NCBI RefSeq assembly: GCF_023746535.1
Contig: NZ_CP098747.1
Location: forward strand, 3,095,001 to 3,159,000
Direction: 5' to 3'
From: Sneathiella marina
GTDB lineage: Bacteria > Pseudomonadota > Alphaproteobacteria > Sneathiellales > Sneathiellaceae
DNA: 64,000 nucleotides
The translations under genes were made by a program, and so were the position numbers. Below, one piece after another: positions 3,130 to 34,660 of this stretch (positions within the stretch are counted from its first letter, which is position 1; every line of letters starts with the position of its first letter). Under the pieces are notes generated by a model that searched no databases, was not told where the DNA came from, and saw only the letters and a program-made list of their open reading frames with translations.

Positions 3130-3200
3130 AATAAATTTTAATGATTACAAGAGCGCCTTTATACTGCCGCCAGATATCCATAGATAAGAGAGCCAGCGCA

Positions 3201-4412
3201 ATGAAATTTTCGTATTCTGATAAAACTGATAGCCTTGTAGCCCGTGTAGAAGCATTTATGAGCGATAACGTATATCCTGCGGAACAGGAATATCATGACT
3301 ATATTGAGAGCTCGAGCACCCGCTGGGTTATTCCCCCTGTCATGGAAGAGCTGAAAAGCAAAGCAAAAGAAGCGGGCTTATGGAATCTGTTTCTGGCTGA
3401 TTTCGAAGATTATGGCGCCGGTTTGTCTAACCTGGAATATGCCCCGTTATCTGAAATAATGGGCCGTTCCATGATCGGTTCTGAGGCCTTTAACTGCAGT
3501 GCGCCCGATACCGGCAATATGGAAGTTTTGGCGCGGTACGGCACGCAGGCACAAAAGGATGAATGGCTGGTACCGCTTCTCAACGGTGAAATCCGCTCGG
3601 CTTTTGCCATGACTGAACCAGCTGTCGCCTCCTCGGATGCAACCAATATTCAAAGCACAATCCGCCGCGAGGGAAATGAGTATGTCATCAATGGCCGCAA
3701 ATGGTGGACATCAGGCGCCCCGGATCCACGCTGTAAAATAATGATTTTCATGGGAAAAACAGATGTGAATGCGTCGCGACATACACAGCAGTCGCAAATC
3801 CTTGTCCCTATGGATACGCCTGGCGTGAAATTAATTCGTCCTTTGAAAGTATTCGGCTCTGACGATGCGCCTCATGGCCATGCGGAGATGCTTTTTGAAA
3901 ATGTGCGCGTCCCAATCTCCAATATTATCGGAGGAGAAGGAGAAGGGTTTGCTATTGCACAAGGCCGGTTGGGCCCTGGTCGCATTCATCATTGCATGCG
4001 GCTTATCGGATGCGCGCAACGCGCCATTGAACTCATGTGCGACCGGGTGGAAAACCGGGTGGCTTTTGGCAAGAAACTCAGTGAACAAGGATCTATTCGC
4101 GAAGATATTGCAAAATCCATTTGCGAAGTAGAGCAAGCCCGATTACTGACATTGAAAGCTGCAGAACGTATGGATCTGGTGTCCTACAAGGAAGCCCGTG
4201 ATCTCATTGCCATGATCAAGGTCGTGGCTCCCTCCATGGCGCAAACCGTTATTGACCGGGCCATTCAGGCTCACGGTGCCATGGGACTTAGTCAGGACAC
4301 CTTCCTGCCCGAAGCCTTTGCTTATGCAAGAACGGTGCGGCTGGCCGATGGTCCGGATCAGGTTCATATGTCGTCGCTTGGAAAGCAAATTATACGGCGC
4401 TATGCCAGCTGA
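3201..4412 (+). CDS. Acyl-CoA dehydrogenase family protein
   Basis: 403 residues from the ATG at 3201, chosen over an upstream frame extension to 3141 because it starts at the conserved region and follows AAGAGAG. The FAD-dependent acyl-CoA dehydrogenase fold is visible: [16 protein letters not shown] (flavin/substrate loop), [11 protein letters not shown], the [13 protein letters not shown] segment, [14 protein letters not shown] and [34 protein letters not shown] at the C terminus. It would oxidise an acyl-CoA to the 2-enoyl-CoA and reduce ETF. It resembles the ACAD10/11-like or medium/long-chain group; the substrate is unknown. The thioesterase gene follows after 46 bp, likely in one transcript. 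Confidence 0.9.
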
Positions 4413-16968: not shown

Positions 16969-18393
16969 TTATTGTAAATTCACATACTCATAATCAATGG
17001 GCAAACTATTGATACCGCGATCCGGAGCGGCAATCCATCCTGCCATTTTCCCAGGTTCCGTTACCTGCTGCATCAGGCTTTGAACATATGCCCGATCTTC
17101 ATCCGATGGCAAAAACTCATCATGCCGCCTGTGGTACTCTTCTTCTGACAAGAAATTTCCTTCCGGCGTGACGGTCTGGCCTGCCCAGGCCCCTATATTC
17201 CTGCGAAAGCGACTAGAGGGCAGCGTAATTTCGAAATCAAACCCTGCTTTCTTGATAAGCCGGTTCCAGCGGGTAACGCCGACCTGACAGTCTTTGATAT
17301 ACGCATTCCGCACCTGGTCATTGACAGCACTGCGCACGGCAATCTCTTCCAGCCGTATACCCCCTTTTTCATCGGGAACCTCAAGCTCCAGACTAGTGTC
17401 TTTTGCAATATGGTCTTCATATTGTTTCTCGTCCGGTCTTCCTTTTATGCCATTTGCAAAGCTTATCGCCGCATTTGATGAAACCTCCGCGCCAAACAAA
17501 TCCATACAGGAAGAAAACCAGAAATTCACGTAGCGCTGAAGAAGGGGCAAATCGACAACCCCGGCTTTACGTAAAGTGGCTGGATCATCGGTTTTAAGCT
17601 CGGACATTTTATCGATTGTACGTTTAACAACGCGGCTAATCCCGGTTTCACCGACATACATATGATGGGCTTCCTCCGTCAGCATGAAACGGCATGTACG
17701 CGCCAACGGATCGAAAGAGGATTCTGCCAGGCATTTTAACTGATATTTTCCATCACGATCCGTAAAATACGTGAACATAAAAAACGATAGCCAGTCACTG
17801 ATGGGCTCGTTAAAGGTACCCAAAATACGAGGATTATCTTCGCTGCCGGAATGCCGCATTAACAGGTCTTCGGCTTCTTCCCGGCCATCCCTGCCGAAAT
17901 ACGCATGTAGCAAATAAACCATCGCCCAAAGATGCCGCCCCTCTTCTACATTCACTTGAAACAAATTACGCAGATCAAACAAGGAAGGGCATGTGAGGCC
18001 CAGCAATCGTTGTTGCTCAACTGAGGCCGGCTCCGTATCGCCTTGTGTCACAATGAGCCGGCGTAATATCGATCGGTACTCGCCCGGCACCTGTTGCCAG
18101 ACCGGTTTTCCAAAATCATCGCCAAATCCAATGGACCGGTCCTGAATTTGATCGGCGAGGAAAATGCCCCAACGATAATCCGGCATTTTGACGGCCCCGA
18201 AAGTCGCCCAGCCCTTTGCATCTACGGATGTTGCCGTTCTGAGATAGACGTCTTTCGTCTGGAACCCCTCAGGTCCAAGCTCCTGCCACCAATCCAGAAA
18301 TCTCGGTTGCCAATGCTCTAGAGCACGCTGCAAACGGCGATCATTTCCTAAATCAACGTTGTTTGGAATTCTTTCCTGATAATTGATCGCCAT
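16969..18393 (-). CDS. boxB: Benzoyl-CoA 2,3-epoxidase subunit BoxB
   Basis: 474 residues, the usual BoxB length. The class I diiron epoxidase has carboxylate/His ligands visible in NVEEGRHLWAMVYLLH (E-x2-H around 151-154) and MLTEEAHHMYVGE (around 240-244). It converts benzoyl-CoA and O2 to the 2,3-epoxide and normally takes electrons from the reductase BoxA. Its start overlaps the boxC stop (TAATG) and its ribosome site GGAGGAG lies in the boxC end, so boxC-boxB are translationally coupled. BoxA is not encoded in the window. Confidence 0.95.
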   Translation of the reverse strand: MAINYQERIPNNVDLGNDRRLQRALEHWQPRFLDWWQELGPEGFQTKDVYLRTATSVDAKGWATFGAVKMPDYRWGIFLADQIQDRSIGFGDDFGKPVWQQVPGEYRSILRRLIVTQGDTEPASVEQQRLLGLTCPSLFDLRNLFQVNVEEGRHLWAMVYLLHAYFGRDGREEAEDLLMRHSGSEDNPRILGTFNEPISDWLSFFMFTYFTDRDGKYQLKCLAESSFDPLARTCRFMLTEEAHHMYVGETGISRVVKRTIDKMSELKTDDPATLRKAGVVDLPLLQRYVNFWFSSCMDLFGAEVSSNAAISFANGIKGRPDEKQYEDHIAKDTSLELEVPDEKGGIRLEEIAVRSAVNDQVRNAYIKDCQVGVTRWNRLIKKAGFDFEITLPSSRFRRNIGAWAGQTVTPEGNFLSEEEYHRRHDEFLPSDEDRAYVQSLMQQVTEPGKMAGWIAAPDRGINSLPIDYEYVNLQ

Positions 18394-20036
18394 TATACTC
18401 TCCTCCGGTCAAATTCTGCTTTCGTGCCACTACCAAACAATTTCAAGGCGCCTTTTTCTCCGACAGCATTTGGCCGATTAAAGATCCAATTTTGCCAGGC
18501 TGACAGTCGGCCAAAGATTTTAGTCGCGGCGTTTTCTGTGCCTCCAAATCTGAGGTTAGCCTCCATACCTGTCAGCGCGTCAGGAGACAAACTCGCCCGC
18601 TCCTCTACCAAAAGCCGTATTTCTTCTTCCCAATCAATGTCATCGGGAATGAAAGTCACGAGCCCTTTTTCCTCGGCGTCAATTGCATCGAGCTCAACGC
18701 CAACCTGCTGCTTGAGGACACCAAGTATATTCTCATCATCATAAAAGCGGTTTCCAAGCCGGGTCCGGCCATTGACCATTTCCAGACCACCAAAGTTCAT
18801 TTCACTAAGAGAAATATTTGTTGGCTCACCCTCTTCTTGTGCGATATCCAACATGTAAATGCGATCGGCGGAAAGTGCCAATTCATAGAGAGATCCGGCG
18901 AAGCAGGAGTTTTCCTCCACCAATGCAAACAAGCTACGCGAAGAGACATCCAGGCGGGCAAATGTCCGCCGCATCATGCCAATGACTTCCCGGACAAACC
19001 AATCTGATTGATGTTGAGAAAGCACCGCATCAGCTGCGAGAACTTTTTTAGGGTCACCCGCCGTCTTGAGCAATATCGTGCCTATTTCCTCATTATTCGT
19101 TCGAAGCAACAAAATGGCATCATCAAGTTCACGAGCCATTGCGAGAGGCCACCAGTTTGCACCGGCAGAGTGGATATCCTCAATGCTGTCCGCAATATCC
19201 ACTTTTGGCGCGTCGACGGTAATTGTTGCCGTACGCCCCTGCTTATCTATATCAGCTCTCACATGCGAATACCGATAACCTGCATCATCAATTTTACGGT
19301 CCAGGGGCGTTAATGAAATGCCGCTGGCTTTCGCTGGACGAGAACTTTCCGCACAGAGTTCTTCAGCTCTCGCCCTAACTTTTTCATTGAACGCATTTTT
19401 GGGAACGACCTCATCAACGAATTTCCATTCCTTGGCACGCCGTCCTCTCACCCCATCCGGATTAGTACAAAATACATCGGCCAAATCCCGCCTGACTTTT
19501 CTTTTTTCCGTAATTCGCGTCAGGCCGCCTGTGCCAGGCAATACGCCCAGCAACGGAACTTCGGGTAAACTAACGGCACTGGATCGGTCATCGATCAGGA
19601 AAATTTCGTCGCAGGCCAAAGCCAGCTCATACCCACCGCCGGCTGTCGTTCCATTACAGGCTGCCAAAAATTTGATTCCGGATTTCTCACTACTGTCTTC
19701 CATGCTGTTTCGGGTTTCGTTGGTGAATTTGCAAAAATTCACTTTCCAGCCATGAGAAGAGGTTCCCAGCATATAAATATTCGCACCGGCGCAGAACATT
19801 TTGTCCATTCCGCTGGTCACAATTACGGTACGGACAGTGGGGTATTCGAATCGAATCCGCTGCAGAGCATCATGCAGTTCAATATCAACTCCCAAGTCAT
19901 AGGAATTCAGTTTTAACTGATATCCCGGTACGAGACCTGCATCTTCATCTACTTCCAGGATCAAACGGGCAATAGGACCGTCAACTTTCAATGTCCAGTG
20001 ACGATAGTGATCTGGATGTGTGTCGAATGTAATCAT
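18393..20036 (-). CDS. boxC: 2,3-epoxybenzoyl-CoA dihydrolase BoxC
   Basis: 547 residues from the ATG at 20036 (a TTG two codons upstream is possible). It has two crotonase-like halves: the first contains SGMDKMFCAGANIYMLG and AACNGTTAGGGYELALACDE, the second FALVEENSCFAGSLYELALSADRIYMLD. This double-domain architecture is characteristic of BoxC, which opens the epoxide ring of 2,3-epoxybenzoyl-CoA and releases formate, giving 3,4-dehydroadipyl-CoA semialdehyde. It is first in the boxCB operon, 62 bp downstream of the regulator gene, with a TGCA-containing operator candidate in that gap. Confidence 0.95.
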   Translation of the reverse strand: MITFDTHPDHYRHWTLKVDGPIARLILEVDEDAGLVPGYQLKLNSYDLGVDIELHDALQRIRFEYPTVRTVIVTSGMDKMFCAGANIYMLGTSSHGWKVNFCKFTNETRNSMEDSSEKSGIKFLAACNGTTAGGGYELALACDEIFLIDDRSSAVSLPEVPLLGVLPGTGGLTRITEKRKVRRDLADVFCTNPDGVRGRRAKEWKFVDEVVPKNAFNEKVRARAEELCAESSRPAKASGISLTPLDRKIDDAGYRYSHVRADIDKQGRTATITVDAPKVDIADSIEDIHSAGANWWPLAMARELDDAILLLRTNNEEIGTILLKTAGDPKKVLAADAVLSQHQSDWFVREVIGMMRRTFARLDVSSRSLFALVEENSCFAGSLYELALSADRIYMLDIAQEEGEPTNISLSEMNFGGLEMVNGRTRLGNRFYDDENILGVLKQQVGVELDAIDAEEKGLVTFIPDDIDWEEEIRLLVEERASLSPDALTGMEANLRFGGTENAATKIFGRLSAWQNWIFNRPNAVGEKGALKLFGSGTKAEFDRRRV

Positions 20037-20078
20037 GGTCAAGATTTCCCGTTCTTCGGAATTATAATTCCACTACAT

Positions 20079-20096
20079 AAAGTGCACTTTAGTGCA
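20079..20096. promoter_or_regulatory. Putative BoxR/BzdR operator before boxC
   Basis: The perfect 12-bp palindrome AAAGTGCACTTT (20079-20090) is followed by AGTGCA, giving two TGCA elements exactly 10 bp apart (20083-20086 and 20093-20096). BzdR, the regulator this family is named after, recognises repeated TGCA elements. The site lies 43 bp upstream of the boxC start. Binding is inferred. Confidence 0.6.
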
Positions 20097-20098
20097 TG

Positions 20099-21022
20099 TC
20101 AAGGCGATTGATCAGAATTGGCTGCGAGCAGCCCTTCTGCAATTTCGAGTAAATTCTGCGCAGTTTCATCGATGGCGCGCCCAGATGTATTACAAACTTC
20201 GTCAGCACGCCCATAAAGCGGTTCACGCGCAGATAAAATTTGCTTCAAGTCAGCCATGGCTTCCTGGCTGCCCGCCATCGGCCGCAAATCCCCCTGCTCG
20301 ACAACCCGAGACATATGCTCGCCTGGTGTCGCCTGCAGCCAAATTACATGGGTATGTTGCACAAGAAGAGAAAAGGTTTTCTCGTCAGCTACGATACTGC
20401 CACCGGTGGAAATCACGATTTCATCATGGCTTTCTATAATGTCTTGCAGACAGCGGCGTTCGAACCGTCGAAAGGATGGCTGCCCTGCCAACGAGAAAAT
20501 TTCCGCAAGCGTTGCCCCAAATTCTTGTTCAATTTGTTTGTTTAACTCGATAAATCCAAACCCCAGTTTTTCCGATAAAATAGGCCCAAGTGTTGACTTG
20601 CCCGCCCCCCTCAACCCGATCAACGAAATCCGTTTTGCTTTTGCCCGGCCCGTCTTGTGGCCTAAAGCCTCCTTCAAAATCGAGTTCGCTTGCGCCAATT
20701 CTTGTTCCGTCATTTGACGGGCTAGCTGATATAGAGACTGCATTTGCGGGCTCAATTGCTCACCCACCGAGACAAGATCCAGCATTCTCATATCCATGGC
20801 ATCCGCTATTTGACGAAGAACCAGAACAGAGATATTTCCTTCACCGGTTTCGAGCTTTGCCAAATAGCGTTCTGATACGCCAGAATCATGGGCAAGTATT
20901 TTACGCGTCATTCCGCGCCGTGCGCGCGCCGCGCGGACCCGGGCGCCAAGCTCAGTCAAATAATCAACTGCCGACGCATCTTCACGGCGCGATGGATCTG
21001 TTGCTTGTTTAGGGGCCGCCAT
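20099..21022 (-). CDS. boxR: BoxR/BzdR-type regulator (XRE HTH fused to shikimate-kinase-like domain)
   Basis: 307 residues. The N-terminal HTH_3 domain (about residues 25-85) contains MTRKILAHDSGVSERYLAKLETGEGNIS. After a linker, a shikimate-kinase-like domain begins with SLIGLRGAGKSTLGPILSEKLGF (Walker A) and ends near residue 300. This fusion defines the BzdR/BoxR family, transcriptional repressors that sense benzoyl-CoA through the kinase-like domain. It stands upstream of boxCB and divergent from the flavodoxin/benzoate-CoA ligase genes, so it probably controls both sides. Confidence 0.94.
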   Translation of the reverse strand: MAAPKQATDPSRREDASAVDYLTELGARVRAARARRGMTRKILAHDSGVSERYLAKLETGEGNISVLVLRQIADAMDMRMLDLVSVGEQLSPQMQSLYQLARQMTEQELAQANSILKEALGHKTGRAKAKRISLIGLRGAGKSTLGPILSEKLGFGFIELNKQIEQEFGATLAEIFSLAGQPSFRRFERRCLQDIIESHDEIVISTGGSIVADEKTFSLLVQHTHVIWLQATPGEHMSRVVEQGDLRPMAGSQEAMADLKQILSAREPLYGRADEVCNTSGRAIDETAQNLLEIAEGLLAANSDQSP

Positions 21023-21056
21023 ATATTCCCACTCTCTTCATAAAATACTGGACAAG

Positions 21057-21062
21057 ATGCAT
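21057..21062. promoter_or_regulatory. ATGCAT element in the boxR/flavodoxin divergent promoter
   Basis: A single TGCA within ATGCAT stands in the 85-bp divergent region between boxR (start 21022) and the flavodoxin gene (start 21108). It may be a half-site for BoxR autoregulation. One short match is weak evidence. Confidence 0.3.
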
Positions 21063-21107
21063 TATATTTCCTATTTCCTGACTTGAGTAGTATTTTTTTG
21101 GAGAAAA

Positions 21108-21575
21108 ATGGCATTGGTCGACAGTATTAAAATTCTTGTTAGCACTATGACTGGCACAGCTGAGCTCGTTGCCGATGAAATTGCCGACGCCCTTAATGCA
21201 AAAGGCAAAAACACCGAAATATTGCTCATGGATGATCTTGCCGCTGACGTTTTTGAGGCCGGAGCCGCGTATGTTATTTGCACGTCAACCTATGGGCAGG
21301 GCGATGTGCCGGATAACGGCCAGGCATTCATGGATGATCTTGAATCGGCGGAAATGGATTTGGGCAACATTAAGTACGGTGTATTTGCACTTGGCGACAT
21401 CACATATGATCAGACTTTTTGCAATGCTGGCGTTCTCTTTGATGAGACCCTCGGAAAATTTGGCGCCAAACGGATCGGCGACATCATGAAACATGACGCC
21501 TCTTCCGGAGAGTTGCCTGAAGACCAGGCTGGTGAATGGGCGGAGGAATGGCTGGAAAAGCTGCATAGCATGTGA
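21108..21575 (+). CDS. Flavodoxin (MioC/sulfite-reductase-like FMN domain)
   Basis: 155 residues, a single flavodoxin domain. The phosphate loop is STMTGTAELVADEIADAL, the first FMN-stacking loop is TSTYGQGDVPDN, and the second is LGDITYDQTFCNAG, which fits the short-chain MioC/CPR-like branch. It would carry one or two electrons from a reductase to an acceptor. GGAG precedes the ATG. It is divergent from boxR and 117 bp upstream of the benzoate-CoA ligase gene, so co-expression with the box pathway is likely. An electron donor role for BoxB is inference. Confidence 0.9.
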   Translation: MALVDSIKILVSTMTGTAELVADEIADALNAKGKNTEILLMDDLAADVFEAGAAYVICTSTYGQGDVPDNGQAFMDDLESAEMDLGNIKYGVFALGDITYDQTFCNAGVLFDETLGKFGAKRIGDIMKHDASSGELPEDQAGEWAEEWLEKLHSM

Positions 21576-21692
21576 GGGCTGCTTTCATTTACTTGCTGAT
21601 AAAACAAATGTAACGATAAAGTTCTAAGCGGGCGCGCGGCAAGCCAGACGGAAACCAATAACCTGAGGCTTAAGGACTACTGGGAGAGTAAA

Positions 21693-23243
21693 ATGCCAAA
21701 TAGCGACGATGGATCAACTCTGTACTTTAATGCTGCAGTTGACTTGATCGATCATAATATTCAGGCTGGCCGTGGCGGTAAAACGGCGGTCATAGATTCC
21801 CGCGGCTCCCATACGTACCAGGATTTGAGCGACAATGTTAATCGCTTCGCCAATGCATTAAAAGATATGGGCATCGAACCGGAGCAACGTATTGTTCTCT
21901 GCCTCAATGATACAATTGATCTGCCTGTCGCCTTTTTAGGAGCGATTAAAGCGGGGGTTATTCCTGTTCCCATCAACACCCGGCTCACGGAAAAAGACTA
22001 CAAGTATATAATAAATGATAGCCGCGCCACGGCGCTCTTTGTTTCAGATGATCTATTCTCGCTCTTCGAAGGCCATGTAAATGACCATCAAAGCCTAAAA
22101 GCGATCGTTATTTCCGGAAAAAAAGGGAATGTGGAGAATAATCTCTCAGCACTATTAGAAGCCGAAAGTACGGAATTTTCTGCGGCTCAGACCCGCCATG
22201 ATGATATGTGCTTTTGGCTATATACTTCCGGTACAACCGGTATGCCGAAGGGCACTGTTCATTTGCACGGTAATTTACGGGCGACTGCAGATTTATATGC
22301 CAAGCAGACACTTGGTGTCCGTGAAGACGATATTATGTTTTCAGCCGCGAAGCTTTTTTTCGCGTATGGTTTGGGAAATGGGCTGACATTCCCGTTTTCC
22401 ATCGGCGCCACGGTTATTCTTCTGGAGGGCCCGCCAACTCCGGACGCTGTTTGTCAAATTCTCCGAGACCATTCGCCGACAGTCTTTTACGGTGTTCCCA
22501 CACTTTTCGGCATGCTTTTGGCAAGTAATGTCTTACCGAAGGCCGGCGAACATCACCTCAGGGTTTGCACATCAGCCGGAGAAGCACTGCCCGCGGATCT
22601 GTTGTCGAGATGGCAGCGTCATGTCGGCGTCGATATTCTGGATGGAATTGGCAGCACGGAAATGCTGCATATTTTCATCTCAAATAGACCTGGAGACGTC
22701 AGACCCGGTGCGACAGGAAAGGCGGTGGAAGGGTATGACATACGCCTGACAGGAGATGACGGACAGGTTGTTTCACAAGGTGAAATGGGCGCGCTGGAGA
22801 TTTCCGGCCCCTCCAGCGGCCTTATGTATTGGAACCAGAGGACAAAGAGCCTTGATACTTTTCAAGGGCCTTGGACACGCGCCGGCGACAAGTACCGCCA
22901 AGACGAAGAGGGATACTACATTTATTGTGGTCGAACCGACGATATGTTGAAAGTTGGTGGCATTTACGTTTCACCATTCGAAGTTGAAGGAGCTATGATA
23001 GAGCATGATGACGTCCTGGAAGTGGCTGTCATAGGCAAAGCCGATGCCGACGATCTCATAAAACCCAAAGCCGTGATTGTCCTGAAAGATGCGAGCATTG
23101 ATCAAAACAAAATGCGAGAGGACCTTCAGGAATATGCAAAATCCAAGCTAGCTGCGTATAAGTATCCGCGGTGGATAGATTTTGTTGACGAACTGCCGAA
23201 AACAGCAACGGGAAAAATTCAGCGGTACAAGTTACGTGATTGA
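21693..23243 (+). CDS. Benzoate-CoA ligase
   Basis: 516 residues of the ANL adenylating family. The P-loop is LYTSGTTGMPKGTVHLHGNL, A5 is GIGSTEMLHIFISN, and the C-terminal lysine motif is LPKTATGKIQRYKLRD. Features such as FSAAKLFFAYGLGNGLTFP, GVPTLFGMLLAS and VCTSAGEALPADLLSRW are those of the benzoate/4-hydroxybenzoate-CoA ligase group. It activates benzoate (or a close analogue) with ATP and CoA, feeding BoxB. GGGAGAG precedes the ATG. The symbol bclA or badA would fit, but the substrate is inferred from context. Confidence 0.92.
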   Translation: MPNSDDGSTLYFNAAVDLIDHNIQAGRGGKTAVIDSRGSHTYQDLSDNVNRFANALKDMGIEPEQRIVLCLNDTIDLPVAFLGAIKAGVIPVPINTRLTEKDYKYIINDSRATALFVSDDLFSLFEGHVNDHQSLKAIVISGKKGNVENNLSALLEAESTEFSAAQTRHDDMCFWLYTSGTTGMPKGTVHLHGNLRATADLYAKQTLGVREDDIMFSAAKLFFAYGLGNGLTFPFSIGATVILLEGPPTPDAVCQILRDHSPTVFYGVPTLFGMLLASNVLPKAGEHHLRVCTSAGEALPADLLSRWQRHVGVDILDGIGSTEMLHIFISNRPGDVRPGATGKAVEGYDIRLTGDDGQVVSQGEMGALEISGPSSGLMYWNQRTKSLDTFQGPWTRAGDKYRQDEEGYYIYCGRTDDMLKVGGIYVSPFEVEGAMIEHDDVLEVAVIGKADADDLIKPKAVIVLKDASIDQNKMREDLQEYAKSKLAAYKYPRWIDFVDELPKTATGKIQRYKLRD

Positions 23244-30229: not shown

Positions 30230-32299
30230 ATGGGCTCAAAGAACTTGCTGAGAACGCGTACTATCCAGCTTCTCGTCACAACATTATGTTTATTTCAGGT
30301 TGCCAGCGCGTCCACCGCCCCTGCTCAAACAGCTGAACCTGCTCCAAAACAATTTAATGTTTTTGATATGCCTAATATGTCAGAGCGGCTTGCTTTCGTA
30401 TTTGGCGCTCTAAAGGCAGGCAGATTTGAGGTTGCGGAAAAGGCGCTGCTAAAGGTGGTCAAAAAATATCCGGATCGGGCGCAAAATTACTTTCTTATCG
30501 CAACAGTTTTTGCCTCTCAGAACAAACAAAAAGAAGCGCTTGATGCCCTGGAAAATGCGATAAATAAAGGCTTCAATAACTCCGAAAGGCTGCAAAGGGA
30601 TCCAAATCTAAAATCCATTCGCTCCACGGCCCGGTTTAAAGACCTGGCAGAGAAAATTATTAAGCTTAATGCGACAGAAGGCAAAACTGAAAAACGCAAG
30701 ATAGAGCCCTATTTCGTTGAAGGGACTAACGCCCTTGTAAGCGCAGCCAATACGACCTGGAACGGACGATTTGGTGTCTTGCTCAGTCGATTTGAATTCA
30801 ATTCACGCCGTGCATCTCCGGTGACCGTACAAAAAGATGCTAATGACCCCGTCGCCAAACAATTAAATGGGTGGTTCAGACGCGGTTTTGCTGCCGGGAA
30901 TAGTGGTGATCTTTATGACAATCGGGATCATCAACACTCCTCCCTCAGCAAAGAAACCTTCCCACAATTTGGGTTTGTCGAATATAGCCCGGAAGCAAAA
31001 AATGCCGGCATCGATTACGGCCTGAATACGAAAATTGTTTTCAACGCTCCTACTATTGGCAATTCATCCACCGGCATCATTGGCCTGCATAGCCAGGCAA
31101 GCCTGGCTTATGTTTTGCCCTTCGCTATGCAAAAATTATACTTACAATATGTTCAAAATCACCTGTATGTTTATCCGGCTGTGCATGACTATTCCGAGAA
31201 AAATGGAGATGTTTTATCTGCTACCACACCGTACCTGGTTATTTCTCAAGGAAGGTCCGGTTCTGACAAACCTTTTCTTAAAGCATTAGCAAGCATTCTT
31301 GCAGCCTTCGATCCCGGCGTGAAAGATGAGCTAGTCAAAAGGAACCTTCTCATGCCCACGGTTCAGATGATCCTGCGGGAAGGTCAGTTATCCTCAGAAA
31401 AAGCCGAAGATTATTTGACCTATAAAGCGCATCCACCGGTGTTTGACAGTAAAAATCTTGATGTCATCCGCATGATTGTAATGGCGCAGGAAATGGAGCT
31501 GGACAAAGTTCCTCCCATGGTGTCGCTTGCGATTGTCGAGGAAAGCACACCAAGGAAAGGGATCGATAACTTTAGCAGGTTTTTACCGGAAACGCTTTTT
31601 AAGACACCTGGGGCGATCGCCCGCGTTGTTCGATCATCCGCAAAAAATACAACACTTGTGGTTAGCGCTGAAAAGACAAAAGTGCCTGCGGATCAAAAAC
31701 TGACATATCATTGGGTGGTGCTGCGCGGGGATTCCAGGAAAATAAAAATAACCCCGAAAAATGCAGAAGGAAGCGTGGCGGAAATCACGGTTCCCTGGCA
31801 TGATGGATTTCCGGCACCGGAAAGGCCTGACTTTCAGACCCACAGGGTCGAAATTGGCGTATTTGTCAATAATGGAACCTACTATTCTGCCCCTGCATTC
31901 GTTAGCTTCCTGTTTCCTGCCAATCAAATTCGAAGCTACAACAAGGACAATCAAATAGCGTCTATCGACCACCGACCTGGCAAGGGGACAAAACCTTATG
32001 TAGATCCGCAAGTATTTGCGAGCCGCGACTGGCGCGACGACTTTTCATATGATGAACAAGGGTTCCTCACCGGATGGCAGAGAACAAGAGGCGACAAAAT
32101 TGACGAATACACTGCAGATGGTTTCAAGGTTGTGACGCGAGATAAATTTGGGCGGCCCTTGCAAGTTGAAAAAGTCGAATATGATGCCAAGCAGCAAAAT
32201 CCCCGCCAGCGCTTCTTTATAGAACGCGCTACCGGGGAATTTACAACATATGAATATAAAAATGATACGGATAAAGTGGGCGCCCCTAATAGGAACTAG
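30230..32299 (+). CDS. Large secreted TPR-containing protein of unknown function
   Basis: 689 residues. Signal peptide at residues 1-32 (TIQLLVTTLCLFQVASA). Residues about 55-130 hold TPR-like repeats (LKAGRFEVAEKALLKVVKKYP and FLIATVFASQNKQKEALDALE). The remainder has a long central domain (YSPEAKNAGIDYGLNTK, STGIIGLHSQASLAYVLPF) and a C-terminal part with beta-rich character (DFSYDEQGFLTGWQRTRGDK). I do not recognise the family. ATAAGGA precedes the ATG. The stop overlaps the convergent SDR stop (CTAGTAG). Confidence 0.75.
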   Translation: MGSKNLLRTRTIQLLVTTLCLFQVASASTAPAQTAEPAPKQFNVFDMPNMSERLAFVFGALKAGRFEVAEKALLKVVKKYPDRAQNYFLIATVFASQNKQKEALDALENAINKGFNNSERLQRDPNLKSIRSTARFKDLAEKIIKLNATEGKTEKRKIEPYFVEGTNALVSAANTTWNGRFGVLLSRFEFNSRRASPVTVQKDANDPVAKQLNGWFRRGFAAGNSGDLYDNRDHQHSSLSKETFPQFGFVEYSPEAKNAGIDYGLNTKIVFNAPTIGNSSTGIIGLHSQASLAYVLPFAMQKLYLQYVQNHLYVYPAVHDYSEKNGDVLSATTPYLVISQGRSGSDKPFLKALASILAAFDPGVKDELVKRNLLMPTVQMILREGQLSSEKAEDYLTYKAHPPVFDSKNLDVIRMIVMAQEMELDKVPPMVSLAIVEESTPRKGIDNFSRFLPETLFKTPGAIARVVRSSAKNTTLVVSAEKTKVPADQKLTYHWVVLRGDSRKIKITPKNAEGSVAEITVPWHDGFPAPERPDFQTHRVEIGVFVNNGTYYSAPAFVSFLFPANQIRSYNKDNQIASIDHRPGKGTKPYVDPQVFASRDWRDDFSYDEQGFLTGWQRTRGDKIDEYTADGFKVVTRDKFGRPLQVEKVEYDAKQQNPRQRFFIERATGEFTTYEYKNDTDKVGAPNRN

Positions 32300-33069
32300 T
32301 AGCCGATATGCGCCCCACCATCGATCGAAAGATGCTGGCCTGTAACATAACTTGAGGCTTCCGAAAGTAGGTAACAGACGCTTTTGGAAACTTCTTCAGG
32401 TGTTGAAAAGCGCTGTAAAACAATTTGTGCCATATAGCCATCGCGAAACTTTTCGGACCGGACTGTTTCGGTCATTTCCGTCTCAACTACCCCGAAGCAT
32501 GCACTATTCACCCGGATACCATAGCGGCCCCATTCCTTTGCAGCACTCATGGTGATGCCGAGGACACCTGCTTTTGCCGCGCCATAATTTATCTGGCCAA
32601 TCGTACCACGGCGGCCCGCAATGGATGAAATATTAACAATAGAGCCTGGTGTTTTATCGCCATCCTTGGCGCGTTCAATCATATGTCGACCAACGGCTTG
32701 CAGGCATAAATATACGCCCGTAAGATTGACGTCGATCACCTGTTGCCAGGTTTCAAAAGGCATTTTATTGATCATCGCCGCACGGACAATGCCTGCATTA
32801 TTGACAAGACCGTGAATGGCTCCGTTTTTTGTTATGGCGTTCGCCACCATATCCTGCACAAAACCGGGTTCTGCGACGCTGCCCACATGGACTTCAGAAT
32901 TTTCTGCGCCAAGCTTGTCCCCAAGTGCTTGCACCTTGTCAGCCTGCATATCGACGAGAATTGCTCGTCCGCCAAGGGAAACGACCAGCTCCGCGGCGGC
33001 TTCGCCGACGCCTTGCCCGGCTCCGGTGACGATAATATTGCGCCCTTCCAGGCTCATTGGATTAATCAT
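32296..33069 (-). CDS. Short-chain dehydrogenase/reductase (SDR)
   Basis: 257 residues of the classical SDR fold: NIIVTGAGQGVGEAAAELV (TGxxxGxG), LVNNAGIVRAAMI (NNAG), SIVNISSIAGRRGTIGQINYGAAKAGVLG (catalytic Ser, Tyr-x3-Lys) and the C-terminal SYVTGQHLSIDGG. It would oxidise or reduce a hydroxyacyl-CoA or similar using NAD(P). AAGGAAAG stands before the ATG. It is third in the thiolase-DUF35-SDR operon, consistent with a 3-hydroxyacyl-CoA dehydrogenase role, which is inference. Confidence 0.92.
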   Translation of the reverse strand: MINPMSLEGRNIIVTGAGQGVGEAAAELVVSLGGRAILVDMQADKVQALGDKLGAENSEVHVGSVAEPGFVQDMVANAITKNGAIHGLVNNAGIVRAAMINKMPFETWQQVIDVNLTGVYLCLQAVGRHMIERAKDGDKTPGSIVNISSIAGRRGTIGQINYGAAKAGVLGITMSAAKEWGRYGIRVNSACFGVVETEMTETVRSEKFRDGYMAQIVLQRFSTPEEVSKSVCYLLSEASSYVTGQHLSIDGGAHIGY

Positions 33070-33092: not shown

Positions 33093-33488
33093 TTAAGCTG
33101 GCTCAAACATTGGAACAGACACGCCTGCCGTTTGTGTTTCAACAAAGGTCACCTTGACCGCTTGCCCGATTTCCAGCGCATCAAAATCGCAATTGATGAT
33201 ATTGGTCATCATTTTGATTTCCATGTCTTCCACCGTTACATACGCGATTGCAAAATTGGGTTGCACCCGGCGCATTACGCTGAATGAATAGATGACACCT
33301 TTGCCGTTGGATTCCGTGTAATAGGTATCGTCACTGCCGCAATGTGGGCATATGGTTCGGGGGTAATGATGTGCAGCGCCGCAACTTCGGCATTTCTTGA
33401 CCATCAATTTACCGGCGCTTGCGCCATCCCAATAGTCCCGTGTTTCCTCATCTATATGAGGTGTGGGTATTTCACGATTATCGGTCAT
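33093..33488 (-). CDS. DUF35 OB-fold/zinc-ribbon partner protein
   Basis: 131 residues from the ATG at 33488, eight bases after AAAGG. The zinc ribbon is CRSCGAAHHYPRTICPHCGS (two CxxC pairs), followed by the OB-fold with GVIYSFSVMRRVQPNFAIAYV. DUF35 proteins form complexes with thiolase-like or Ltp2-type proteins, carry acyl-CoA binding surfaces, and are needed for activity. Its start lies just past the stop of the thiolase-like gene (two bases between), as expected for such a pair. Confidence 0.92.
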   Translation of the reverse strand: MTDNREIPTPHIDEETRDYWDGASAGKLMVKKCRSCGAAHHYPRTICPHCGSDDTYYTESNGKGVIYSFSVMRRVQPNFAIAYVTVEDMEIKMMTNIINCDFDALEIGQAVKVTFVETQTAGVSVPMFEPA

Positions 33489-33490
33489 TT

Positions 33491-34660
33491 TCATACCCTT
33501 TCCATAATAAGTGTTGCAGCGCCATGACGCGTTCCCAATGAACCACCTGTGCCATGCGCCAATGCCAGGTCGCAATTTGGTACCTGAACCGCCGGATGCG
33601 CTTCACCGCGCAATTGGCGAACGGCCTCAAGGACCTTGGTCATCCCCCCGCGATTTGCCGGATGGTTATTGCACAAGCCCCCGCCGTCTGTGTTGAAGGG
33701 GAGTTTGCCGGTGCCGGAAATCAGGTTACCGTCCGCAACGAATTTACCGCCTTCTCCTTTTTCACAAAAACCGAGATCTTCAAGCTGGATCAAGACGGAA
33801 ATCGTGAAGCTGTCATAAATGGACGCATATTTGATGTCAGCGGGCGTGACGCCTGCTTCTTCAAAGGCAATCGGACCCGAGCGTACTGCCCCGGAATAAG
33901 TGAGATCTACCCGCCCGCCCATTTGATGTTTCGGTGATTCTCCGGCGCCGCGCAGTTTGATCAAGGGCCGATTTAATTCCCGCGCAATTTCCGGGGCAAC
34001 AACGATCAATGCCCCGCCGCCATCACTGATCACACAGCAATCCAGACGGTGCAACGGATCAGAAATCATTGGCGAGTTCACCACATCTTCAACAGTCACC
34101 ACATTCCGTAGCATGGCATCGGGATTATGTTGGGCGTGGTGCGACGCGGCAACCTTGATCCAGGCCAGTTGCTCGCTTGTCGTGCCATACTCATACATAT
34201 GTCGTTTGGCACACATGGCATACATGTTGGCAATGACGGGCCCATAGGGAAATTCGAAGGGCACATCCGGTAGACCGTCGCCATAAATTCTGGGTTTGGT
34301 GCCGGTTGCCATGCCTTCTGCACGCGGTTTCCCGGCCAGGGTTACGAGGGCAATCTTACATTTACCCGCCTTGATCGCCTGCGCGGCATGCCCCACATGC
34401 AACAGATATGACGAGCCACCTGTTTCTGAACTGTCCATATGGCGCAAGTTGAGGCCCATATAATCGGCCATCGTCAAGCCACCTAAACCCGGTGCATCGC
34501 CGGCACAGAAATATCCGTCAACGTCATCCTTGGTTAAACCGGCATCTTCCAAGGCGCCCTTGGCCACTTCGGCATGTAGTTGCGCAAGGGATTTACCAAC
34601 AGCCTTTCGCGTTGGATGCTCGAACGCACCCGCGATATAGGCGTCTCCGTTAATTGTCAT
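33491..34660 (-). CDS. Thiolase-superfamily protein (SCP-2/Ltp2-like), lacks the usual nucleophile Cys
   Basis: 389 residues with thiolase fold segments: AGLTKDDVDGYFCAGDAPG, the C-terminal GGGLCNNHPANRGGMTKVLEAV (conserved NxHP His) and ALAHGTGGSLGTRHGAATLI. At the position of the active-site Cys near residue 80 the sequence is DSSETGGSSYLLH without Cys, and the C-terminal Cys is also missing (AHGTGGSLG). Proteins of this kind paired with DUF35 (Ltp2) act as retro-aldolases in sterol side-chain cleavage, so a classical thiolase reaction is doubtful. Confidence 0.88.
   Translation of the reverse strand: MTINGDAYIAGAFEHPTRKAVGKSLAQLHAEVAKGALEDAGLTKDDVDGYFCAGDAPGLGGLTMADYMGLNLRHMDSSETGGSSYLLHVGHAAQAIKAGKCKIALVTLAGKPRAEGMATGTKPRIYGDGLPDVPFEFPYGPVIANMYAMCAKRHMYEYGTTSEQLAWIKVAASHHAQHNPDAMLRNVVTVEDVVNSPMISDPLHRLDCCVISDGGGALIVVAPEIARELNRPLIKLRGAGESPKHQMGGRVDLTYSGAVRSGPIAFEEAGVTPADIKYASIYDSFTISVLIQLEDLGFCEKGEGGKFVADGNLISGTGKLPFNTDGGGLCNNHPANRGGMTKVLEAVRQLRGEAHPAVQVPNCDLALAHGTGGSLGTRHGAATLIMERV

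Follow-up and report, generated by a model that had tools for sequence, protein, structure and literature searches.

A cysteine-less thiolase-fold protein and its DUF35 partner in Sneathiella marina: a proposed acyl-CoA aldolase with a Tyr/His pair

The locus and its protein family

We analysed a window of 64,000 nucleotides from the genome of Sneathiella marina (G000; 4.07 Mb, single contig), covering positions 3,095,001 to 3,159,000 of contig NZ_CP098747.1. On the minus strand of this window, a string of three genes encodes, in this order, a thiolase-like protein, a DUF35 protein and a short-chain dehydrogenase/reductase (SDR) (Table 1). The first two are the subject of this report. The initial annotation, made from the sequence alone, had described them as a thiolase-like protein without its nucleophilic Cys and a DUF35 partner, and both open reading frames (ORFs) were present as described. 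The DUF35 gene most likely starts at 33494, where ATGA gives a four-base overlap with the stop codon of the thiolase-like gene; a 160-aa ORF starting with TTG at 33575 was rejected as an over-long call in favour of this start.

Table 1. Positions in the window of the three genes and of the motifs discussed in the text
Feature	Position	Strand	Description
Thiolase-fold protein, NF006010/PRK08142	33491..34660	-	389 aa; proposed acyl-CoA aldolase catalytic subunit
Gly81-Gly82-Ser83-Ser84, site of the thiolase nucleophilic Cys	34409..34420	-	Gly82 in the Cys column of the alignment
Tyr282-Asp283-Ser284-Phe285	33806..33817	-	Counterpart in the alignment of Y302-D-C304-Y in Sal and Y294-D-H296-F in Ltp2; proposed base, Tyr282
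Asn331-Asn332-His333-Pro334	33659..33670	-	His333 aligned with Ltp2 Tyr344 and Sal Gln352; proposed general acid
DUF35 partner (zinc ribbon and OB fold)	33093..33494	-	133 aa
C4 zinc-ribbon motif of the DUF35 protein, Cys35-x2-Cys38-x10-Cys49-x2-Cys52	33339..33392	-	Pattern search
SDR dehydrogenase, probable pathway partner	32296..33069	-	257 aa; in Sneathiella, 14 of 17 orthologs lie near a family gene

In Pfam, the thiolase-like protein matched Thiolase_C_1 (1.4e-50) and, weakly, Thiolase_N (20.8 bits against a cut-off of 26.4). The DUF35 protein matched zf-ChsH2 and OB_ChsH2_C and carried no second domain. The SDR matched adh_short_C2 and is predicted to be of the NAD type.

The thiolase-like protein is a member of NF006010/PRK08142, scoring 747.4 bits over residues 1-388 against a curated cut-off of 462. 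The NCBIfam title of this family is 'thiolase domain-containing protein', with no function attached, and its hosts include Proteobacteria, Actinobacteria and haloarchaea. A scan of genome contigs yielded at least 587 relatives, the best 80 of which were 74-85% identical to the window protein; these best 80 are the 80 loci referred to below. Among 72,556 plasmid records, 577 matched, 39 of them at 60-80% identity, including plasmids of Rhodococcus, Pseudonocardia, Mycobacterium and the haloarchaea Halomarina and Natrinema. When 60 of the 577 plasmid records were listed as a spread, identity fell from 59% to 47% between adjacent rows. The NF006010 cut-off was passed by 24 of 398 genomes of the phylum, S. 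marina included, and by none of 14 controls. Within the genus, 21 of 23 relatives carried a family copy, one of which was split (G008), and the genomes of the two relatives without one were 65% and 70% complete.

Active site, fold and phylogeny

Active-site residues were compared in an alignment of 173 sequences, comprising 117 family rows (at least 450 bits to the query) and 56 others, among them five anchors from the PDB. At the nucleophile column, where the thiolase 7yvy has Cys (...AACASGG), the window protein has Gly82 (...SETGGSSY), and Gly was found in all 117 family rows. Thus, the nucleophilic Cys that characterizes SCP2-type thiolases is absent, and the conserved Cys at this position that the initial annotation had named as evidence against its reading was not found. 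The HDCF motif of SCP2-type thiolases reads YDSF in the window protein, with Ser284 in place of the second Cys, while the His of the thiolase GHP/NHP motif is retained as His333 of NNHP. The initial annotation was therefore right that both Cys residues are missing and that the NxHP His is kept.

Tyr282, Asp283, Ser284 and His333 were each present in 116 of the 117 family rows. The sole exception was L106 (G008:C350), where the family gene of a fragmentary draft genome is broken across two reading frames, possibly through a sequencing error. Across the 117 rows, haloarchaea and Actinobacteria included, 137 positions were at least 97% identical, and Gly82, Tyr282, Ser284 and His333 are among them. 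Because the five active-site residues are near-invariant, the loss of the Cys is not a matter of chance, nor has the gene decayed.

The residue at the nucleophile column went together with that at the first position of the HDxF motif. All 18 rows with Cys at the nucleophile column had His in HDxF, whereas 153 of the 154 Cys-less rows with residues at both columns had Tyr there, the exception being the frameshifted fragment L106; the row of 7pxp has no residue at the nucleophile column. Cys-less Tyr types made up 37 of the 55 non-family rows having both columns. Of these 37 rows, 20 had His at column 333, 14 had Tyr and 3 had Gln; the residues at columns 284/333 were A/H (9), S/H (7), C/H (3), P/H (1), H/Y (6), A/Y (4), C/Y (2), N/Y (1), S/Y (1) and C/Q (3), so that all three Gln rows had Cys at column 284. 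The family itself had Ser284/His333 in all 116 Tyr rows. This pattern suggests that the residues at the two columns are interchangeable proton donors, of which the family would use His333.

An AlphaFold2 model of the single chain was built from an alignment of 80 rows (the window protein and 79 of the 80 loci) and had a mean predicted local distance difference test score (pLDDT) of 82.9 and a predicted template modelling score (pTM) of 0.88. In VIA-align comparisons with solved structures, Z was 46.8 for Sal, 45.9 for 4u4e, 45.1 for Ltp2 and 42.7 for TbSLP, and lower for the Cys thiolases 7yvy (42.5), 6esq (42.2) and 7pxp (40.0); differences below 1 were taken as ties. Foldseek ranked 4u4e, Sal and Ltp2 at the top. 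In a tree of 73 rows, the 18 rows sampled from NF006010 formed one clade (support 100/99), which joined the 4u4e group in a clade of 29 rows (100/99). Sal, Ltp2, IpfD and the family rows all fell on the Tyr side (54 rows) of a branch with support 100/99, and 18 Cys thiolases formed one clade (99/95) apart from it. Several tree rows, Sal among them, are long branches.

Two of the nearest structures were those of Sal, the bile acid side-chain aldolase of Comamonas testosteroni (PDB 9myr), and Ltp2, the steroid side-chain aldolase (PDB 6ok1). Their published catalytic residues are Tyr302 with Cys304 in Sal and Tyr294 with Tyr344 in Ltp2 (PMC12329534). Like the window protein, Sal has Gly in place of the nucleophilic Cys, a catalytic Tyr in a YDxF/Y motif (Tyr302, equivalent to Tyr282) and a DUF35 partner. 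However, Cys304 of Sal corresponds to Ser284 (116 of 117 family rows) and Gln352 to His333. The DUF35 part of Sal-Shy is, by the same account, fused to MaoC (Shy) and has a Cys3His1 zinc site, whereas the window DUF35 is a separate protein of 133 aa with a C4 site.

The initial annotation had likened the pair to the Ltp2-DUF35 retro-aldolase and had proposed an alignment with Ltp2 for the catalytic residues. Its comparison is right in kind: Ltp2 shares the fold, the absence of Cys, the side of the tree and a DUF35 partner, and its base Tyr294 (YDHF) is conserved as Tyr282. It is wrong in the second catalytic residue, as the general acid Tyr344 of Ltp2 aligns with His333, in a loop that is three residues longer, and His296 aligns with Ser284. 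In addition, the DUF35 of Ltp2 is part of ChsH2 instead of a separate protein. In the Ltp2 operon a ChsH1 gene lies beside ChsH2, whereas the window operon (thiolase-DUF35-SDR) has no ChsH1/MaoC gene.

The best sequence match in the PDB was 4u4e (304.6 bits, 42-45% identity), a putative thiolase of Sphaerobacter thermophilus that shares the YDSF, GGSS, HP and HGTGG motifs and the 100/99 clade with the window protein; it differs in having Ser instead of Cys330 and lies outside the NF006010 branch. IpfD of ibuprofen degradation (pIBU218) resembles the window protein in being Cys-less, with YDAF and a DUF35-type neighbour, and the ipfDE product is said to release propionyl-CoA (PMC9195938). It differs in having Tyr at the His333 position, as in Ltp2, and is distant, on a long branch. 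The gene at L131:13228-14838 of pIBU218, annotated 'hypothetical protein', is probably IpfD by gene order, lying next to dioxygenase and DUF35 genes. The SCP2-type/archaeal thiolases 6hsj, 7yvy and 6esq and the benzoylsuccinyl-CoA thiolase 7pxp share the fold; the HP His occurs in 7yvy and 7pxp, and 6esq has a DUF35 chain. The nucleophilic Cys and HDxF of 7yvy and the HDxF of 7pxp, however, are absent from the window protein.

Partner genes and candidate pathway

Of the 80 loci, 79 (all but L009) had a DUF35 gene directly downstream of the thiolase-like gene, and the two proteins are proposed to form a complex. The C4 zinc pattern was present in 62 of the 79 DUF35 partners. It was absent from the matched stretch in the other 17 (L005, L010, L016, L020, L033 and others), next to a fully conserved thiolase partner; some of these stretches may merely be short, and others may have lost the zinc site.

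We probed the 80 loci for further neighbours at E 1e-8. Besides DUF35 (79), matches were obtained for SDR (24), TTT (19), the CoA-transferase CaiB (17), acyl-CoA dehydrogenase (ACAD; 10), ZnADH (9) and AcsADP (9), with eight or fewer for the others; because contigs are short, all counts other than that of DUF35 are lower bounds. A single pathway neighbourhood conserved across phyla was sought and not found in these loci.

Within Sneathiella, the gene occurs as two paralogues, type A (81-89% identical to the window protein) and type B (72-76%). Type A is a two-gene unit with or without an SDR gene, and it adjoins mnmA/flgL/flgK in L189-L192 and L195; the window unit lies 2.4 kb from mnmA. Type B was found in nine genomes (L174 and L176-L183) inside a gene group of the order SDR-(IclR)-ACAD-[aldolase-DUF35]-CaiB-MaoC-CitE-CaiB-ECH, where ECH denotes enoyl-CoA hydratase. 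Apart from the regulator, the group was complete in six (L174, L176, L177, L178, L179 and L180). L182 lacked matches for both CaiB genes and ECH, L183 lacked SDR, ACAD and the first CaiB, and the group of L181 ends at a contig end. A close IclR gene lay inside the group only in L174, L176, L180 and L181.

The window SDR was 73% identical to the SDR of the type-B group. In the 16 of 24 genus genomes covered by the SDR search, 17 orthologs were found, one in each genome and two in G012, and for 14 of the 17 the distance to a family gene was no more than about 2.3 kb. Among type-A-only genomes, the SDR was beside type A in G000, G001, G003, G008, G014 and G021 and away from it in G009 and G015. 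In genomes with both types it lay beside type B in G018, G019 and G022, and G012 had one copy beside each. The copies apart from any family gene were those of G009, G011 and G015, the latter two adjoining the ACAD gene of the module described below (L206 and L207). Among the 398 phylum genomes, four, S. marina included, had an SDR ortholog at E 1e-70 or better; in G434 it was near the family gene, and G246 and G296 had the SDR and no family gene over the cut-off. G434, with 82 bases between SDR and family gene, and Delftia L120, whose SDR is 55% identical to that of L174, represent a divergent third arrangement. The SDR is thus a probable pathway partner of the family enzyme within Sneathiella, as the initial annotation had supposed from their shared operon.

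The S. marina genome holds, unlinked to the window genes, a module resembling the type-B group (G000:C1:3296117-3300755). It comprises a CitE ortholog (G000:C1:3296117-3297016) together with MaoC, IclR, ACAD and CaiB, and the five proteins were 77, 85, 58, 87 and 72% identical, respectively, to their type-B counterparts. This module has no aldolase gene of its own, and the window copy may serve it in trans. An ortholog of the type-B CitE at 70% identity or more was found in 15 of the 16 genomes searched; in G016 the type-B group is cut by a contig end. In two genomes the CitE ortholog has one internal stop codon (G001:C13:40391-41275 and G014:C17:78644-79528). A Sal-type Cys-less paralogue (YDCF/Gln) with DUF35 lies in a CitE-MaoC-CaiB string at L198 (G015:C4:122176-123339) and L204 (G023:C186:8607-9767), where one type of aldolase has apparently taken the place of another within the module.

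CitE and MaoC scored with RipC and RipB of itaconate degradation, and CitE also with citrate lyase beta, all below cut-offs. As CitE and MaoC resemble RipC and RipB, and as a CitE-type lyase acts on several branched 3-hydroxyacyl-CoA esters (PMC6689899), a branched or dicarboxylic acid is a likely substrate. CitE matched at E 1e-75 or better in 18 phylum genomes, eight of which passed the family cut-off, compared with 24 of 398 overall, S. marina being in both sets. We did not use this co-occurrence as evidence, because a single genus accounts for five of the eight and, outside Sneathiella, the matches are no more than 45-50% identical. Beyond the genus, a similar gene set (MaoC, CoA ester lyase, ECH and two CoA-transferases) flanks the family gene on a Natrinema plasmid, and part of it surrounds the family gene of Variovorax WDL1. 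The tricarballylate utilisation genes tcuA/tcuB lie near the family gene at L114 and L118, on plasmids of Rhizobium leguminosarum and Cupriavidus necator.

Two further suggestions of the initial annotation fared less well. A steroid role was unsupported: searching the genome with the window protein returned only itself and two Cys-type relatives (L002 and L003), and the DUF35 zinc ribbon zf-ChsH2 had only two matches in the genome, steroid ring-degradation genes not having been searched for. The initial annotation had also offered the CaiB gene and the acyl-CoA dehydrogenase gene (3141-4412) elsewhere in the window as partners. This CaiB gene is probably not the partner, as CaiB lay near the family gene in one (L193) of the ten type-A regions probed in the genus (L185-L193 and L195), and the window CaiB was 35% identical to the CoA-transferases of the type-B group; the unlinked module offers better candidates. 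The window also contains genes of the aerobic benzoyl-CoA (box) pathway at 16969-23243, about 10 kb from the proposed aldolase unit. BoxB scored 775.7 bits (cut-off 499) and BoxC 903.8 bits (cut-off 712), and they are accompanied by a regulator of benzoate catabolism (NF006015) and a member of the benzoate-CoA ligase family.

Proposed reaction, alternatives and implications

Structure matches, the tree, the motif split, the pattern of second residues, the published catalytic residues, DUF35 adjacency and the association with the SDR and the module together suggest that the thiolase-like protein and DUF35 constitute, on balance probably, a two-subunit acyl-CoA aldolase acting by a retro-aldol reaction. 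Such an enzyme would cleave, or in reverse form, the C2-C3 bond of a 3-hydroxyacyl-CoA, yielding acetyl-CoA or propionyl-CoA and an aldehyde or ketone with no covalent Cys intermediate. Tyr282 would remove the proton from the 3-hydroxyl group. His333 in the NHP loop would be the general acid that protonates the CoA enolate, the role of Cys304 in Sal and Tyr344 in Ltp2, and DUF35 would give the substrate cleft its shape. The partners of the enzyme in Sneathiella would be the neighbouring SDR and, we infer, the CoA-transferase/acyl-CoA dehydrogenase/MaoC hydratase/CitE-type lyase module, acting on a probably branched or dicarboxylic acid.

Several observations weigh against this proposal. Activity was not detectable in the Sal variants C304A, C304S and C304H (PMC12329534). 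Since C304S is inactive, Ser284 cannot simply replace Cys304, and the burden therefore falls on His333, whose loop (residues 332-336) has pLDDT below 50 in the model. The CoA-binding Arg216 and the oxyanion Gln161 of Sal align with Pro197 and Ala144, respectively, and are not conserved. Tyr at column 282 is no proof of an aldolase, because PhlC, an acyltransferase, combines Cys88, Tyr298 and His347 (PMC6392133; columns assigned here by offset). In the tree, the Cys-less Tyr row L158 sits beside the Cys thiolases, and the column-333 classes do not form one clade each, the non-family His rows requiring five changes. The 80 loci revealed no general neighbour besides DUF35. The SDR gene is patchy beside type A, being present in 9 of 18 copies and absent in eight, and its position next to the family gene would also be compatible with a 3-ketoacyl-CoA substrate. 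Finally, the open-licence papers searched contained no activity data for the NF006010 subfamily, no paper on PRK08142 and only unrelated papers on 4U4E. In the remaining type-A copy (L089; G002:C91), a 36-residue C-terminal remnant of the SDR lies right behind DUF35, as if most of the gene had been deleted.

A 3-ketoacyl-CoA substrate would fit a Cys-independent retro-Claisen enzyme, in which the SDR oxidises a 3-hydroxyacyl-CoA and the thiolase-like protein cleaves or hydrolyses the product, His333 activating water or CoA and no acyl-enzyme being formed; alternatively, a malonyl-type CoA ester would be decarboxylated. The SDR scores best with FabG-type ketoacyl reductases in NCBIfam, although below their cut-offs, and is kept near the family gene within Sneathiella, the GHP/NHP His of thiolases is retained in 116 of 117 family rows, and TbSLP has weak malonyl-CoA decarboxylase activity (PMC12329534). 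The same paper reports no detected malonyl-CoA decarboxylase activity for Sal, and the tree and the Tyr/Cys split group NF006010 with the aldolases. We consider this alternative unlikely. To our knowledge, the thiolase superfamily has no Cys-less retro-Claisen enzyme.

We give less weight still to a forward aldolase or Claisen-type synthase that joins acetyl-CoA or propionyl-CoA to an aldehyde or ketone, its product being reduced or oxidised by the SDR. Aldol reactions are reversible, and many of the 80 loci match only the DUF35 probe, which often leaves the two-gene unit without an obvious catabolic cluster around it; clustered copies, however, have neighbours typical of degradation, namely CoA-transferases, acyl-CoA dehydrogenases, hydratases and ligases. 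That the protein is a thiolase or acyltransferase whose nucleophile has moved appears improbable. Candidate residues exist, as Cys330, just before NNHP, is conserved in 116 of the 117 family rows, L106 having a gap there, while Cys101 and Cys209 occur in 117 and Cys208 in 116, but no conserved Cys aligns with the nucleophile column, the close non-family relatives 4u4e and L125 have Ser at position 330, and the thiolase nucleophile is located at the start of the central helix. A dead or purely structural pseudoenzyme, suggested by the loss of both thiolase Cys residues, is very improbable given the 137 conserved positions described above, which include the proposed catalytic residues.

If the proposed aldolase reaction is correct, the window protein would add a third variant of the active site to those of the DUF35-linked acyl-CoA aldolases. 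More tentatively, NF006010 as a whole may form its own class of thiolase-fold acyl-CoA aldolases, the third and as yet unassigned, that uses a Tyr/His pair as opposed to Tyr/Cys in Sal and Tyr/Tyr in Ltp2. In Sneathiella, and on the haloarchaeal plasmid that carries a similar set of genes, it may catalyse a step in a CoA-transferase/CitE-type pathway, not described before, that handles a branched or dicarboxylic acid. Annotations usually call proteins of the thiolase fold thiolase or acetyl-CoA acetyltransferase. Under the proposed reading, many of them, the Cys-less Tyr types, would instead be aldolases with interchangeable acid residues, and their automatic annotations would be wrong; this includes the present family, which is conserved between haloarchaea and Proteobacteria at an identity of at least 60%. 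A testable residue rule could identify them: no Cys, a Tyr in the place of the His of HDxF, and a His, Tyr or Cys partner. The reading would also provide a candidate set of pathway genes and new enzymes for making or breaking C-C bonds in CoA esters.

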